From: an uncultured Bacteroidota bacterium
GTDB lineage: Bacteria > Bacteroidota > Bacteroidia > UKL13-3
DNA length: 33,579 nucleotides
Direction of reading: 5' to 3'
NCBI GenBank assembly: GCA_903927505.1
Contig: CAIYNF010000209.1
Coordinates: 1-33,579, forward strand
The position numbers were made by a program, and so were the translations under genes. The notes under the pieces were generated by a model. The model saw nothing but the letters and a program-made list of their open reading frames with translations, was not told the origin of the DNA and searched no databases. This document shows, piece after piece, positions 22,376 to 30,545 of the stretch (positions are counted from its first letter, which is position 1; every line of letters begins with the position of its first letter).

Positions 22376-24232
22376 TTATTTAAAAGTAATTGTAAACGAA
22401 GTTCCTCTGTCCACCTCACTACTTATTTCAATATTACCTTTCATGGCTTGTATGTGAGATTTAACTAAATACAGTCCAATTCCCTTGCTATCACTATGCT
22501 TGTGGAATTTTTGGTAAAGTCCAAATACCCTGTCTTTAACCTTGTTTAGGTTCATGCCAATGCCATTGTCTTTATAAGTTAAAATGGTTTTTCCATCTTC
22601 TCTTCTGCTTCTTATTTTAATTTGAGCCGGTACATTTGGCTTCGCATATTTAATAGAATTTGTAATAAGGTTTTGGAAAACACTTTCCATATAAGATGAT
22701 ATAAGCACACAATCTGGCGCCTCATCAAAATTAACATCAAATTCAACTTTAGCCTTATCAATTTGTTGTTCAATTCCTTGAATTGTTTTGTTGAATAGTG
22801 ATTGAAATGATAACCTGATAAAATCTAAACTTGTGTTTTCTTTTATGATTAAAGTTTTAATCAAATCATTCAAAGTTTCGTTTAATTTTTCTGTTGATTT
22901 TTTAAACCCAAATATTAATTCCTTTGTAGTCTTGTCTTCAACTAAATCCAGGTCTATTAAGTCTATAATGCCCACCAAATTTGTAACTGGTGCGCGTAGG
23001 TTATGTGAAGTGATATAGGTAAATTGTTTTAACTCGTTGTAACTTGAGGTTAATTCTTCAATCAACTTCTTCTTTTCCTCTTCAAATAAAATTCTATCTG
23101 TAATGTCTTCATTTACCACCACATAATTTGTCTTTTTACCTTTTTCATCAAATACAGGTGAAACAATTGCTTGTTCATAAAAGCGTTCTCCCGTTTTTCT
23201 TTTGTTAGAAAAAACGCCTTTCCATGTGTGTTCAAGTGTAATCATATCCCACATGGTTTGTTGCACATTGCTTTCGTTAATTTTAGATTGAATAGATTTG
23301 AAGTTTTGTCCAATTATATTAGATTTTTCAAATCCTCCATTTTTACAAAATGTTGGATTTACATATTCTATTATTCCATCTGTGTTTGTAATCAACATAG
23401 ATGCACCAGATTGTTCAATGGCCAACATGAACTTCTTTATATTGTTTTCACTTTGTTTTATTTTTGTAATATCAAGGCCGTAACCAATTATAAAAATAAG
23501 TTCATTATTTTCATCAAAAACAGGCGACATTTTTCTTACCACCCATTTTTTCTTTCCATTTGCTAAAGTTAACTCTTCTTCAATTTCAAATTCTTCTCTT
23601 AGGTTTAGAACGCGTTCAAAATTCTTTCTTCTTTCTAAAGCAATTGCTAATGGTTTATTGTATTTTTCTATATAATCAAAATCGTCGCGACCAATAATCC
23701 ATGATCTTTTTTCTGGATCTGCAAGGGCAATTAGATTAGCGAATAAATACTTATGTTCGAGACTAAAAACGGCAATATCAGAAGGGATATTGTTTAAAAT
23801 AGTTTCGTAAAACACTTTTTGTTTATTTAATTCTGATTCTTTTTGCGTGTTGTATAATTCTAATTTCTTTTTATTAAATTGGTCGGCAGATTGCTTGTTT
23901 TCTTGCTGAAATAACACTAAATAATGCGTTTCAAACTCGCCTTCTAGTAAATCCACAGTTAGGTTAAATCCAACAAATTCACCATCCTTTTTCAATAAAA
24001 TTTGTTCGCCAATAAAAGTTGTTTCTATTGAATCTTTTTCTTCTTTTACAGCGAAAAAATTGATCAATCTGTTATGTAAGATTTCTTCCTTAGTGTATGC
24101 TAACTTTTCTATAAAATAATTATTTGCATCCATAATTTCTCCATTTTTGGATATAATTACAACGCCTAATAGCCTGTTATTAAAAAGACTATTCAGTAAA
24201 ATAGAAGAGTTATTTGATTTTGTGAAATTCAA
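22376..24232 (-). CDS. PAS-domain sensor histidine kinase (the only complete kinase of the locus)
   Basis: 618 residues, soluble, no membrane helix. There are three PAS domains at about 16-115, 137-265 and 267-395. A DHp domain follows with the phospho-acceptor His in SHNLRAP (about 411), then HATPase_c with N box FQNLITNSIKYA (about 523-534), G1 DNGIGM (about 560-565), F box FGLYQKFH (about 575-582) and G2 SKGIGLYLVKS (about 587-597), ending EVDRGTSFTITFK. This is the HNLRAP subgroup common in Bacteroidota. The likely phosphorylation partner is the stand-alone receiver 15 nt upstream. The start is a TTG at 24232, because no ATG precedes the first PAS domain; initiation slightly elsewhere is possible. 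Last gene of the four-gene operon. Confidence 0.92.
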   Translation of the reverse strand: MNFTKSNNSSILLNSLFNNRLLGVVIISKNGEIMDANNYFIEKLAYTKEEILHNRLINFFAVKEEKDSIETTFIGEQILLKKDGEFVGFNLTVDLLEGEFETHYLVLFQQENKQSADQFNKKKLELYNTQKESELNKQKVFYETILNNIPSDIAVFSLEHKYLFANLIALADPEKRSWIIGRDDFDYIEKYNKPLAIALERRKNFERVLNLREEFEIEEELTLANGKKKWVVRKMSPVFDENNELIFIIGYGLDITKIKQSENNIKKFMLAIEQSGASMLITNTDGIIEYVNPTFCKNGGFEKSNIIGQNFKSIQSKINESNVQQTMWDMITLEHTWKGVFSNKRKTGERFYEQAIVSPVFDEKGKKTNYVVVNEDITDRILFEEEKKKLIEELTSSYNELKQFTYITSHNLRAPVTNLVGIIDLIDLDLVEDKTTKELIFGFKKSTEKLNETLNDLIKTLIIKENTSLDFIRLSFQSLFNKTIQGIEQQIDKAKVEFDVNFDEAPDCVLISSYMESVFQNLITNSIKYAKPNVPAQIKIRSRREDGKTILTYKDNGIGMNLNKVKDRVFGLYQKFHKHSDSKGIGLYLVKSHIQAMKGNIEISSEVDRGTSFTITFK

Positions 24233-24247
24233 TTTTTTAAAATTGTT

Positions 24248-24670
24248 TTATGAGAAATATTTCAAGAAAGTTTCTGAGTTGACCAATTGATTTAAATTGT
24301 CATCTGTTAATGGTTTTGTAATAAATCCCATAATGAGAGGATGACTAGCAGCCCTTTCTTCGTCTTTAGGGTCAACACTAGAACTTAAGATATCGATTTT
24401 AATTTGAGGGAATTCATGTTGGTATTTTTTCTCAAATTCTTCTAAGAAATCCCAGCCATTCATTATAGGCATGTTTATGTCCAAAAATATAATTTCTGGA
24501 ATAACTCTTTCATCCTCTGGAAGTGTCATTTGTTGCTCAAAATAATTTGCAGCTTCTTCACCATTTTCGGCAGTTATTACTTCTTCGCAAAAATTAGATT
24601 TTTTTAGTCTTAATTTACAGATCATGAGCGTTACATCGTCATCATCTACCAGCATTACTCTTTGTATCAT
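24248..24670 (-). CDS. CheY-like single-domain response regulator
   Basis: 140 residues, one receiver domain only. The acidic pocket is DDDD (about 8-11), the phospho-acceptor Asp is in FLDINMP (about 63), the Ser/Thr switch is in DILSSS (about 94-99), and the conserved Lys is in TKPL (about 119). All are intact. No DNA-binding or enzymatic output follows, so it must signal by protein contact or act as a phosphate shuttle or sink. It starts one base after the stop of an out-of-frame HATPase remnant, showing that it was once placed directly behind a complete kinase. The downstream kinase starts 15 nt after its stop. Confidence 0.93.
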   Translation of the reverse strand: MIQRVMLVDDDDVTLMICKLRLKKSNFCEEVITAENGEEAANYFEQQMTLPEDERVIPEIIFLDINMPIMNGWDFLEEFEKKYQHEFPQIKIDILSSSVDPKDEERAASHPLIMGFITKPLTDDNLNQLVNSETFLKYFS

Positions 24671-24671
24671 T

Positions 24672-24755
24672 TTATTGTTGTATAAATATTATTGTAAATG
24701 TTGTTCCTTTATTTTGTTCACTTTCTACTTTAATTTCCCCTCTCATGTTCTGCAC
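24672..24755 (-). pseudogene. Remnant of a HATPase domain C-terminus, out of frame with the upstream PAS/DHp gene
   Basis: In the frame ending with the TAA at 24672-24674, the minus strand encodes VQNMRGEIKVESEQN then KGTTFTIIFIQQ. This aligns with the end of the complete kinase in the same operon (IQAMKGNIEISSEVD then RGTSFTITFK), which is the last strand and loop of HATPase_c. The PAS/DHp gene upstream ends in a different frame at 24730. So about 125 codons of ATPase domain are missing between DHp and this fragment. Confidence 0.85.
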
Positions 24756-26574
24756 GTTCGGTTTCGTTTTCTTTGAATATTAAGGTATTTATTAAATCAT
24801 CCAAGGTATCATTCAATATTTTTGTGGATTTTTTGAATCCATCAATTAGGTTTTTACTTGTTTCATCGAATATTTCACTTGTATCGGCCAAATCAATAAT
24901 GCCCGTTAAATTAGTTAATGGCGCACGTAAATTATGGGTAATAAAAAATGAAAATTGTTTCAATTCATTGTATTTAATAGCTAATTCGTTAATTAGCTTT
25001 TCTTTCTCTTCTTCTAATAAAATCCTTTTAGTGATTTCTTCTTTAACTGCCACATAATTTGTCTTTTCTCCCTTTTCATTTAAAATAGGAGAGATGGTTG
25101 CATGTTCCCAATATAGATCTCCATTTTTCTTCCTGTTGCAAAATGTACCTGTCCAAGTTTTGTTGTTGCTTAGCTGATTCCAGAGATCTTTATGGGTTTC
25201 TGGTTCTGTATAACTGGATTTTAAAAACCGGGGATTTCTTCCTATCGTTTCCTCTTGTGAATAGCCTGTTGTTATACAAAACGCAGGATTTACATATTCT
25301 ATTTCACCATCCAAATTTGTGATCACAATGGAGGCGGCACTTTGTTCAATGGCTTGCGAATACTTTCTGATTTTAGCAGCGTTTTTTATCTTTTCCGTAA
25401 TGTCTATTGCACTTCCAATTACTGCCGCTTCACCTTGGTAAATTATCCTAGCTCCATGTGTTTCCATGTTTAAAATTTCTCCTGCTTTGGTTATTACCCT
25501 AATTTCGAAATCTTCATTTAATTTGTTTCCTAAAAGCCTTTCCTTTAATCTTTCCTGAAATATATTAAGGTCGTCAGAATGAATAAAAGTTGAATGATCT
25601 AAACTGTATATTTCATTTTTAGTATATCCTACACTATTTGCCAATTTTTCATTTACAAAAACAAAACCTTTTTTTGTTATTATATAAATTCCTACAGGTG
25701 AATTTTCTACTAAGTTTCTAAATTTGTTTTCGGATTCAATTAGTAACAGTTTCTGTTTTCTTTGCTTTGTTACATCTTCTTCAGTTGCTACCCAATTAAT
25801 GCATGCTCCAGCATTGTTGAAAACAGGCATTATTTTAAAGCTATTCCAAAAAGTTGTACCATTTTTTCTGTAATTAATAATTTCAAATTCGCCTGCTATT
25901 TCTGCTTGAATGCAATCTCCAAGTTTAATCAAGTCAGTAAAATCTGTTTCTGGGCCATTAAAAATGTTTATTTGTTTTCCTATAATCTCGGTATCAGAAT
26001 AGCCTGTCATTTTACACATGGCATTATTTGCGAAAATAATTTCCGGAATAGCGCCATTTTTAGGAGCATCTGTTATAATAATTCCTTCTGTGGTATGACC
26101 AATTATTTTTTCATAAAGCAAAACCTTTTTTTCAATGTCACTTAGTGCTTTTGCTTCTCCGTCAAATTGAAAAACGGGTTTTGTCTCCATTGTTTTTATT
26201 CCTGCAATACGCAATAAATGGCCCTTGTAATCACTAGTTATTTCAGATGTAATTACAACTTTGAAATTATGGCCTTTGCTATTTGTAGCTTCGGCAATAA
26301 ATTCATTGCTTTTTGGAAATTTTATGAACGCTACATGGTTTTGCTTAGCTATTTCTTTGTATTCTGGTGAAAATAAATCGCTAAATGATTCTCTAAGTAA
26401 ATTGCCTCTATTAGTTAAAAATATTTCCTCGCAGTAATTGTTACAATCAATAATTTCACCTTTCTCGTCAATAACCAGCAGCCCAATTTTTTGTCCGTCA
26501 AACAGCTTGCCAATCAACATAAGTTGTTCGTTTAAGCTGTTATTGTTGAAAGGATAATTTGGGGTCAAATTCAT
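24730..26574 (-). CDS. Multi-PAS sensor with DHp domain but no ATPase domain (truncated histidine kinase)
   Basis: 614 residues, soluble. There are four PAS domains at about 28-130, 155-275, 282-400 and 402-530. A DHp domain (about 530-597) follows with the phospho-acceptor motif THNLRAP. It matches the DHp of the complete kinase in the same operon at 44 of 67 positions by my alignment, with the His, Arg and Pro all kept. The protein then stops after KENETERAEHERGN, and the N, G1, F and G2 boxes are absent. The second PAS domain lacks the cysteine of LOV photoreceptors. The out-of-frame HATPase tail at 24672-24755 shows that the loss is a deletion. It may be non-functional, or it may heterodimerise with the complete kinase. 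It follows the 1316-residue gene by 20 nt. Confidence 0.88.
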   Translation of the reverse strand: MNLTPNYPFNNNSLNEQLMLIGKLFDGQKIGLLVIDEKGEIIDCNNYCEEIFLTNRGNLLRESFSDLFSPEYKEIAKQNHVAFIKFPKSNEFIAEATNSKGHNFKVVITSEITSDYKGHLLRIAGIKTMETKPVFQFDGEAKALSDIEKKVLLYEKIIGHTTEGIIITDAPKNGAIPEIIFANNAMCKMTGYSDTEIIGKQINIFNGPETDFTDLIKLGDCIQAEIAGEFEIINYRKNGTTFWNSFKIMPVFNNAGACINWVATEEDVTKQRKQKLLLIESENKFRNLVENSPVGIYIITKKGFVFVNEKLANSVGYTKNEIYSLDHSTFIHSDDLNIFQERLKERLLGNKLNEDFEIRVITKAGEILNMETHGARIIYQGEAAVIGSAIDITEKIKNAAKIRKYSQAIEQSAASIVITNLDGEIEYVNPAFCITTGYSQEETIGRNPRFLKSSYTEPETHKDLWNQLSNNKTWTGTFCNRKKNGDLYWEHATISPILNEKGEKTNYVAVKEEITKRILLEEEKEKLINELAIKYNELKQFSFFITHNLRAPLTNLTGIIDLADTSEIFDETSKNLIDGFKKSTKILNDTLDDLINTLIFKENETERAEHERGN

Positions 26575-26594: not shown

Positions 26595-29500
26595 TTAATT
26601 AATTGCATTCCAAGTAAGCGCCTCTTTTGAAATTAAGGTTTGGGCACTTTCTTTATTAATAGGCTTGTTTATATAGTTTTTTACACTAGGAAAGTTTAAT
26701 AGTTTTTGTTTAATAATTGGGTCTGGGTTCGAACCGAAAATAATTACGGGTGATTTTAATTCTAGCTGTTCATATTCTGCTAAAAATTCCCATCCAGATT
26801 TCCGCAACAAGTTCAATTCTAGTAAAATAATATCATTGCCTTTGTCGCCCTTTGATTTTAGATAGGATAAAGATTCATCAACCCCATTGAAACATATTAT
26901 TTGAACTGGGTCAACATATTTTGAAAGAATAAGAGTGCTAATTTTACTTGAAATATCATCCTCGTCAATCAAAATAATCTTGTCTATCCGCTTTAAACTA
27001 TCAGCAATAATTAGTTCTTCTTTTAAAGGAATATTAATTCTTTCCACCAATTTTTTGATTGCTTCATTTGCTTTTTTAAAGGTGCCCTTGCTATGTGAAA
27101 ATATTTCTTTTAAGTCTTTGTCAGCAAAGTCTAAGTCTTGCGCCAGTTCTGCAATGGCTTGGAGTTTATGAAATTCGTGACTTAATTCAAATGATGTAAT
27201 GAAGTTTAGGTCTTTTAATAAGTTAATTAAATTGTTAACATCAATTTCGCGTTGTTTTAAGTGTGAAATATTTTGTGCCATTAAAATAATTTCAAATTTG
27301 CCTGTATCTGTATTTATTGATTTAATTAGGTTTAGCTCATATACTTTCGACTCATTAAAATTATCTACCTTTTCAATTGTGAAATTTAATGTTCCTGCTT
27401 TTTTAACCTGCTCAATCATTTTGAAGAAATTTTCTTTATCCTTTGTATCTTCATTGTTTAATAAATTCTCCCCCTGATTTAATTTTACGCCAAATTTATT
27501 CTGACCCTCTTCAACCGCATATTTACTTGAATAGAGAATGTTCATGTCCTCATCTATCAGCACAAAAACAGATTTTGTATGTTCAATAATAGTTTGTATC
27601 CTATTTTCGGCATATTGATTTCTGGCTCCAATAACTCTTTTATTTATCGCGTCTTCAATTTTGTTTGTAAGCACGTTGAGGTAAACCTGTTTTTGAATCC
27701 TATACTCCTCTGAGTTTAAAACTTCCTCTTTTTGTATTAGATAAAAATTAGCCTCACCAGTTTTTTTATCAATTGTTTCAAATTTTTCTGTATTAGCAAG
27801 CGTATAACTTGGGTCTATATTTTCACCAAAAACAGTATTGTCGTATATAATTTGTAGCAAACTATTACTTGTTTCATTTTTAGGATTATAAATGTTTGTT
27901 ATTTCAGATAAAATTTTTGTTGTATTAAATTCATTGTTGCTTATCAAATCTTGAACCAGTCGAATAGCATTTAAATTTTTAATTTTCTTATCTAAAATAA
28001 TCTTGTTGCTCTTTGTATTTATTATAGCTCCAAGCCATTGACAAATCAAGCCTAACAGTGCCTTTTCATCTTCTAAGAATTTTAAATTAATAGGATAAAA
28101 TAAATGAATACTGAAATTTTCTTTATTGTTAATTAAGCACTGCTCACTTAATTCATTTTTTGAAGGATTAAAATTTTTGCTTACAAATTCTAAATTTCCG
28201 TAAATCACTTTTATAGATACATGGTCGGAATATTTCCATCCTAATGGCAGCATTTTAATAAACTTTTCAATTAATTCATTAACACCCATGGTGTCTTTTT
28301 GCATCAATTTTGATAGCCTACCCAATAGCCACATTTCTCGCTCCCTTATATGGCTTTCGGTATTTGCCATTTGGGCATCTATTTCCGCTAAACGGATACG
28401 TGTAATGTCTTTTGCAATTTTCGAATAACCAATTATTTTGTTTTGTTGATCGCGCAGGGGTGATACCGATAAATTAATATGGATGGTTTTTCCTTGCTTG
28501 TTAATTCTAACGGTTTCTAAATTTATTACGCTCTCTCCCTTGGATATCTTTTTGATGATTTCATTTTCTTCATCAATTTTGTTTTTACCAATAAGGCTAA
28601 ATCTATCCTTTCCAATTGCCTCCTCAGGTAAATAGCCAAACACATTTTTAGCCGCATCATTCCAAGATGTTATTTGCCCTTCTAGATTAATCGAATAAAT
28701 TGCCTCTTCTGCACTTGAAGCCAATCTGTTTAATATGGTAGCTTTTTCTTCAATTACCTTTTTATCTGTCATGTCCCACCTAATAGCTAAATATTGGTAG
28801 GGCTTTTGGTTGGTATCTAAAAAAGGGAAAATAGTGGTATCATACCATTTCTCTTCTCCAATTTTATCAATATTTTTAATTTCTCCTGACCAAATATTTC
28901 CAGCGCTAATGGTATTCCAAAGTTCTTTCCAAAACGACTTTGGATGAAATCCTGAATTGATAAATTTATGGTTTGTTCCTAAAATTTCACTTGACTTAAA
29001 ACCGAAAGTTTTTTCAAAATTTTCATTTACCTTGGTAATTAATCCTTCAGTATCTGTAATTGAAATAATAGCAATGGCATCTAAGGCAGATTGGTAATTG
29101 GTTAATATTTTTTTAGATTGGTCTAGTTCTTGTCCAAATTGAATACTTTGTTTGTTTTTGCGAATAGCAGAAATAGCAAAGGTTAAATTATGGGCACATC
29201 TTTCCAATACAATTGCTTCTCTATTGTCAAAAGCGTTTTTGTTTCCAGAATATATAGCAATACTTGCTTTTTCTTTACCTTCAATATCTATGTATATGCT
29301 AATGCTAGATTGGATGCCATATTGTTGTGATATTTCTCTCCATTGTTTGTCGTTTTTGTCTTCTTGTAAGGAATTAACAATGCAAGTTTTTTGAGTTAAA
29401 ATATTTGTTGCAACTGAACCTTTAAGAATTTCATCATGGTTTAGGTTGAAGTTTAATTTGGATGCATATGCTGTTTCACCTGCCACATAATTCGGAATAA

Positions 29501-30545
29501 TGGTATTTGCCTTTTCATTATTTTTTTCAAAATAGGCAAGCCAAGCCAGTTTGTAATTCCCTTTTTTTGCTAATATATTTAAGAATTCTTTGATCAAACT
29601 TACTTCATCTTTGTTTATTAAAATGAGATTGTTTATCTCATTTAATAAAGTTAAATCATGTATGTATTTTTTGAGGCTATTTTCATTGCTTTGGTTTTTC
29701 TTTTCAAGTTGAACCGATTTTAAGGCATAGGTTAAATTGGCCGCAATTCTCTCCATCACCAATCTCTCATGATCGTCAAACGAATTTTCGTCGGCAGAGG
29801 CAATACTAAATACCCATTTTTTTTCTTCGCCTAAATCTATTGGCAATAAGATTAAGTTTCTAAGATTTAGTTCTAGCCCAGGCAATAGCTCTGTAATTTG
29901 ATTTTCCTCTAATTGAATGGCAATTCCAGTAGATTCGTCTTGTCTTTCCGCCCAATCTTTATACATTTTCTGTATAAACTTTGATTGGTTAAACTGCTCA
30001 TCAGCTATATATAACTCAGATTCTTTGAACCAAATTTCTAAATAGCTGGGATTGCATTTCCCAACCCAAGCCAATTGGTATTTGCCTGTTTTAACCATGA
30101 TTTTGCATAAACCATCAAATAATTCTGCTGGTTCATAGTTCTGCTGAATGCACTCGTTAATGGCATTTAGTAATTGAAGTTCTTTGTTTTCTTTTATAAA
30201 TTTTTGCTCATTGCCATACAGGGGTTTACCAATAGATATAACAGAATTTTGCAGCCTGTTCCAATACATGGTCCAAACCAGGTAAATATATTTCCCTGTT
30301 TTATGTTTAAAGCCAGATTCAAAATTTACAGCAGCATCTTCATTAGTAGCAATTTTAGTTTCTACTGCATGAAGTTTGCTTTTTTCAATATCTAAAAAGT
30401 CTTTAAATTTTTTCCCAATTAATTCTTGAGGCAAATAACCCGTAATTTCATAAACAGCAGGGTTTGCTTTTACACAAAAGCCCTCTTGGTTTATTTCAAT
30501 TAGCAAATTGCTTCCTATGGAATTGTTTTCTTCTGTTAAAGGCAT
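26595..30545 (-). CDS. Giant PAS/GAF sensor with degenerate DHp and C-terminal pseudo-receiver
   Basis: 1316 residues, soluble. Domains in order, with rough limits: PAS 12-110; GAF-like 125-290 and 295-465; PAS 480-600 and 605-730; GAF-like segments 735-985; PAS 990-1110; a DHp-like helical pair 1110-1185 with SHEFHKLQ in place of SHELR-x-P; and a receiver 1188-1305. There is no HATPase domain between the last two. In the receiver, the acidic residues (D1194-D1197 region) and Lys1294 are kept. The phospho-acceptor Asp is Glu1243 (LLELNLL instead of LLDxNMP), and the Ser/Thr switch position is Gly1271. It therefore should not accept phosphate normally. First gene of the minus-strand operon. 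Confidence 0.9.
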   Translation of the reverse strand: MPLTEENNSIGSNLLIEINQEGFCVKANPAVYEITGYLPQELIGKKFKDFLDIEKSKLHAVETKIATNEDAAVNFESGFKHKTGKYIYLVWTMYWNRLQNSVISIGKPLYGNEQKFIKENKELQLLNAINECIQQNYEPAELFDGLCKIMVKTGKYQLAWVGKCNPSYLEIWFKESELYIADEQFNQSKFIQKMYKDWAERQDESTGIAIQLEENQITELLPGLELNLRNLILLPIDLGEEKKWVFSIASADENSFDDHERLVMERIAANLTYALKSVQLEKKNQSNENSLKKYIHDLTLLNEINNLILINKDEVSLIKEFLNILAKKGNYKLAWLAYFEKNNEKANTIIPNYVAGETAYASKLNFNLNHDEILKGSVATNILTQKTCIVNSLQEDKNDKQWREISQQYGIQSSISIYIDIEGKEKASIAIYSGNKNAFDNREAIVLERCAHNLTFAISAIRKNKQSIQFGQELDQSKKILTNYQSALDAIAIISITDTEGLITKVNENFEKTFGFKSSEILGTNHKFINSGFHPKSFWKELWNTISAGNIWSGEIKNIDKIGEEKWYDTTIFPFLDTNQKPYQYLAIRWDMTDKKVIEEKATILNRLASSAEEAIYSINLEGQITSWNDAAKNVFGYLPEEAIGKDRFSLIGKNKIDEENEIIKKISKGESVINLETVRINKQGKTIHINLSVSPLRDQQNKIIGYSKIAKDITRIRLAEIDAQMANTESHIREREMWLLGRLSKLMQKDTMGVNELIEKFIKMLPLGWKYSDHVSIKVIYGNLEFVSKNFNPSKNELSEQCLINNKENFSIHLFYPINLKFLEDEKALLGLICQWLGAIINTKSNKIILDKKIKNLNAIRLVQDLISNNEFNTTKILSEITNIYNPKNETSNSLLQIIYDNTVFGENIDPSYTLANTEKFETIDKKTGEANFYLIQKEEVLNSEEYRIQKQVYLNVLTNKIEDAINKRVIGARNQYAENRIQTIIEHTKSVFVLIDEDMNILYSSKYAVEEGQNKFGVKLNQGENLLNNEDTKDKENFFKMIEQVKKAGTLNFTIEKVDNFNESKVYELNLIKSINTDTGKFEIILMAQNISHLKQREIDVNNLINLLKDLNFITSFELSHEFHKLQAIAELAQDLDFADKDLKEIFSHSKGTFKKANEAIKKLVERINIPLKEELIIADSLKRIDKIILIDEDDISSKISTLILSKYVDPVQIICFNGVDESLSYLKSKGDKGNDIILLELNLLRKSGWEFLAEYEQLELKSPVIIFGSNPDPIIKQKLLNFPSVKNYINKPINKESAQTLISKEALTWNAIN
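26726..26735. repeat. GGTTCGAACC palindrome, copy 4
   Basis: Inside the pseudo-receiver of the 1316-residue protein. On the minus strand it reads TTCGGTTCGAACC and encodes Phe1270-Gly-Ser-Asn, exactly where the receiver's Ser/Thr switch residue is expected. Confidence 0.85.

Follow-up and report, generated by a model that had tools for sequence, protein, structure and literature searches.

A histidine kinase gene of an uncultured Bacteroidota bacterium, here called HK1 (24730..26574, minus strand), is one of two tandem kinase genes and was probably inactivated by a recent internal deletion that is itself probably real; the end of the ATPase domain can still be read out of frame behind it. The window analyzed, which is the whole stretch of 33,579 bases, constitutes one contig (C209) of a draft genome of 2.82 Mb (209 contigs, 99.67% complete), and two MAGs of a 'Jr' series, both Bacteroidetes, are its nearest named relatives at the HK1 locus. 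HK1 is located in a minus-strand operon that encodes, in this order, a 1316-aa PAS/GAF protein (26595..30545), HK1, a single-domain response regulator (24248..24670; Pfam Response_reg, E 2.5e-16), and HK2 (22376..24232), an intact paralogous PAS-DHp-HATPase kinase (HATPase_c, E 1.2e-17). The regulator showed 90% identity to the regulator at the matching position in genome G016, and HK2 showed 79% identity to the kinase at the matching position there. Downstream of the regulator, a second kinase is present in the window and in G016, and a second single-domain regulator in G001, G005, G006, G010, and G011.

The first protein of the operon, which was assigned by Pfam and a predicted model, has an unusual C-terminus of its own. 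Its last 218 residues (26598-27251, minus strand) comprise a DHp-like hairpin and, immediately after it, a REC domain; no HATPase domain lies between the two, and this layout is kept in eight genomes of the genus. The hairpin carries the motif SHE[FL][HY]KL[QE] with an invariant histidine, and Pfam returned no HisKA match in this region.

What remains of the kinase HK1

HK1 encodes a product of 614 aa with four PAS regions and a DHp region. Our ORF check reproduced the frame described in the sequence-only reading, including its coordinates, its peptides, and its end at 24730 (...NTLIFKENETERAEHERGN). A Pfam search (24,736 models) detected PAS_9 in four stretches and HisKA below threshold (residues 540-594, E 0.022), and no HATPase_c match was found in the 614-aa product. 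Because HisKA also fell below threshold in two intact kinases, HK2 and the orthologue described below, the DHp region of HK1 (24793..24957, minus strand) was assigned from the alignment and the H-box. The phospho-acceptor H547, which lies in the sequence THNLRAP, was invariant across ten aligned kinases, and HK1 and HK2 resemble each other in this histidine and in the H-box. The predicted structure of the last 104 residues consists of two helices (2-52 and 61-103), with block pLDDT values that are 83-94 to about residue 90 and then drop to 57 and 46 over the tail read out of frame. Foldseek matches to the modelled DHp were weak (best E 0.13), the top ones being DHp domains or kinases of ERS1, a bacteriophytochrome, CpxA, and the RetS-GacS complex. 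The DHp of HK1 is complete and is predicted to form an uninterrupted hairpin.

Kinases of the HisKA family that lack the ATP-binding boxes are not expected to autophosphorylate. HK1 has the DHp and histidine of an active HisKA-type kinase, but not the HATPase_c domain with its N, G1, F, and G2 boxes, and judging from its sequence the 614-aa product should not bind ATP or autophosphorylate. In its own genome, HATPase lies beside HisKA in 20 of 23 HisKA matches; HK1 aside, HisKA without an adjoining HATPase was seen in a gene at a contig edge (C194) and in a 181-aa frame that was matched weakly (C64).

The out-of-frame remnant and the intact orthologues

Between HK1 and the regulator, another minus-strand frame of 27 codons plus stop (24672..24755) reads VQNMRGEIKVESEQNKGTTFTIIFIQQ and ends with a TAA at 24674-24672, leaving a single base before the regulator ATG at 24670, exactly as the sequence-only reading had it. 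That reading had also identified this segment as the last strand of a HATPase domain and had predicted that a protein search would find HATPase_c C-termini, and this is what we observed: the 27 residues alone matched positions 85-107 of the 111 of Pfam HATPase_c (E 0.0033, 24,736 models). When the C-terminus of the G016 kinase was used as a query against the genome of the window, it matched the remnant site with 73% identity over 30 residues (E 1.4e-5), colinear with the operon. In a family-wide search, the query carried 12 arbitrary leading residues and all matches listed fall in the part from query residue 10 onwards, which is essentially the remnant; among these, the best one outside the own genome was the C-terminal end of the G016 kinase, and the others sit in long open frames, as expected for kinase C-termini. 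Chance is not a reasonable explanation for the remnant.

The orthologue in G016 (CANFSD010000007.1, Bacteroidetes MAG Jr-16oct17-39) shares with HK1 its operon position, four PAS regions, DHp, and C-terminal HATPase strand, the last of these surviving in HK1 as the remnant. HK1 showed 69% identity to this kinase over residues 1-609, and the last residues of the kinase, VHAMRGIISVESEINKGTTFTIIFIQ, align with the remnant. However, the G016 kinase is encoded by one open frame of 756 aa with a complete ATPase domain, whereas HK1 lacks 371 nt net relative to G016, which is not a multiple of three, and is frameshifted; the earlier estimate of about 0.37 kb or 125 residues is close to this. The missing segment contains the N (SIFQNMVSNSIKY), G1 (DNGIGMD), F (GLYQKFH), and G2 (GIGLYLVK) boxes. 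At the junction (24755..24757, minus strand), homology to G016 stops on the left at GAA (24757), followed by one unassigned C (24756), and resumes on the right from GTG (24755), and the alignment with G016 revealed no zone of double homology.

Full-length orthologous kinases, whose ends adjoin the regulator start, were found in six genomes (G001, G005, G006, G010, G011, and G016), which is the intact locus that the earlier reading had proposed to look for in sister genomes. Those of the five genomes other than G016 are open frames of 742-985 codons with a complete ATPase domain, again followed by the regulator, and no other genome among those compared shows the truncated form. Taken with the colinear, recognizable HATPase tail, these orthologues uphold the claim that the ATPase domain of the gene as assembled was lost by internal deletion. 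With intact orthologues and a frame-shifting lesion that left a readable remnant, HK1 shows the sequence signs expected of a pseudogenised kinase. The closest relative, G015 (89% amino-acid identity), could not be used for dating the loss, because its contig ends within the HK1 gene at residue 564, ~125 nt before the breakpoint; this regulator and HK2 are both absent from the G015 bin.

Origin and age of the deletion

We consider it likely that a recent deletion with frameshift, specific to this lineage or strain, left HK1 catalytically dead and the regulator to HK2. The ancestral HK1 would have been an ordinary kinase with PAS, DHp, and HATPase parts, encoded in a conserved operon; ~371 nt would then have been deleted, either in this lineage or in the sequenced strain, taking with them almost all of the ATP-binding domain and changing the frame. 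Because of this shift, translation ends 59 nt ahead of the regulator start, not right beside it. At 73% identity to G016, the remnant has not diverged further than the intact part (69%), which indicates that, compared with the split from G016, the loss is young. Deletion between repeats was set aside because G016, the closest intact relative and our proxy for the ancestor, has no usable repeat at the breakpoints; when its two 60-nt breakpoint regions were compared, no exact match was longer than 9 nt, and that one lies away from the junction. An illegitimate deletion is therefore likelier than recombination between repeats. An exchange tract that reaches up to the deletion (homology-facilitated illegitimate recombination) was also considered, as ~100 nt spanning the HK1 stop and the beginning of the regulator gene share 88-96% identity with G016; it was dropped, since this stretch is alike in other congeners too.

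The sensor half of HK1 (about 25430-26560, minus strand) is ~97% identical to G015 (L068, G015:C56), while its flanks are about 65-90% identical, and the 8.7-kb stretch aligned with G015 is ~83% identical overall. Codons 1-385 have a dS of 0.13 and a dN of 0.029 against G015, but codons 386-540 have a dS of about 2.2, which suggests that ~1.1 kb was recently exchanged between species, or that one of the two contigs is chimeric. Similarly, ~700 nt of HK2 (23073-23772, minus strand) are ~90% identical to G016 (L069, G016:C7) where neighbouring parts are 50-80% identical, possibly another exchange tract. When the substitutions were polarised with G016, eight amino-acid changes fell on the window side and one on the G015 side, but the counts of synonymous and non-synonymous sites stayed proportionate (13:12 vs. 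5:7; Fisher p 0.73), which does not demonstrate relaxed constraint. Most of the visible conservation of the HK1 sensor and DHp is older than the deletion.

The mosaic in the sensor half could also be produced by chimeric assembly of coexisting species, and it raises the question of whether the kinase of the population is intact and the contig either misjoins its flanks or carries a rare deletion allele of a minority strain. The genome is a draft in 209 contigs, and the interruption of the G015 contig in the same gene, so close to the breakpoint, may mean that the locus is hard to assemble. However, assembly collapse normally requires a repeat at both ends, and the 9 nt shared by the G016 breakpoint regions are no repeat of assembly k-mer size. 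Moreover, the junction has no zone of double homology, the window contains no Ns, and the missing segment was found on none of the other contigs of the genome when these were searched. We thus regard an artefact or a minority-strain junction as unlikely.

A possible role for the truncated protein

HK2 is a candidate for the remaining phosphodonor of the regulator, which is probably now driven by this intact kinase. Translation of the regulator, which is probably coupled to the kinase stop in the relatives, may be reduced. Because the DHp of HK1 is complete, phosphorylation in trans would be physically feasible; HK2, a candidate by its position and the similarity of its DHp, would be the nearest donor. 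According to such split-kinase logic, the truncated HK1 would be retained as an ATPase-less sensor whose DHp either forms a dimer with HK2 or serves as its docking site, HK2 would use its ATPase domain to phosphorylate H547 in trans, and the phosphoryl group would pass to the regulator encoded between HK1 and HK2. The predicted hairpin and the H-box shared with HK2 are consistent with this, as is the first protein of the operon, where a conserved DHp-like region already occurs with no HATPase. In addition, separate HisKA and HATPase genes have been predicted in bacteria, and split EnvZ was active in vitro (PMC3591291). Against it, the truncated form occurs in no other genome, an out-of-frame loss with a readable remnant is what a young accident is expected to leave, and the polarised substitution test gave no signal of selection. 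HK1 is a HisKA protein without HATPase on the same protein, but it does not have the phosphatase motif H(E/D)xx(N/T), by which a survey marked bifunctional split kinases (PMC3591291); it reads H547-N-L-R-A. Retention of HK1 as such a sensor seems improbable to us, and it is highly doubtful that HK1 is becoming a split-kinase subunit that still senses and receives its phosphoryl group in trans from its tandem paralogue.

HisKA proteins without HATPase made up 3.66% of 42,417 in SMART in the 2013 survey (PMC3591291), so that the class itself is not new. Like these proteins, HK1 has a phospho-accepting domain and no recognizable ATP-binding domain, but in HK1 the loss is legible as a deletion in a single genome, and the end of the domain persists out of frame. 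A possible likeness is that to CheA3 and CheA4 of Rhodobacter sphaeroides (PMC3591291), where a histidine protein without ATPase and a separate kinase are found near the same regulator. However, the CheA kinases are a different class, CheA3 has phosphatase activity and is itself a conserved, required partner (PMC3591291), and HK2 is a complete kinase, unlike the complementary half in the CheA3/CheA4 pair.

The deletion in HK1 is well documented by sequence comparison and ordinary in kind. It is mainly a warning for annotation, since the 614-aa gene is not to be labelled an active histidine kinase. HK1 would represent an early stage of the loss of a catalytic domain beside an intact tandem paralogue and, should the truncated sensor indeed be kept, an illustration of how split kinases can begin.
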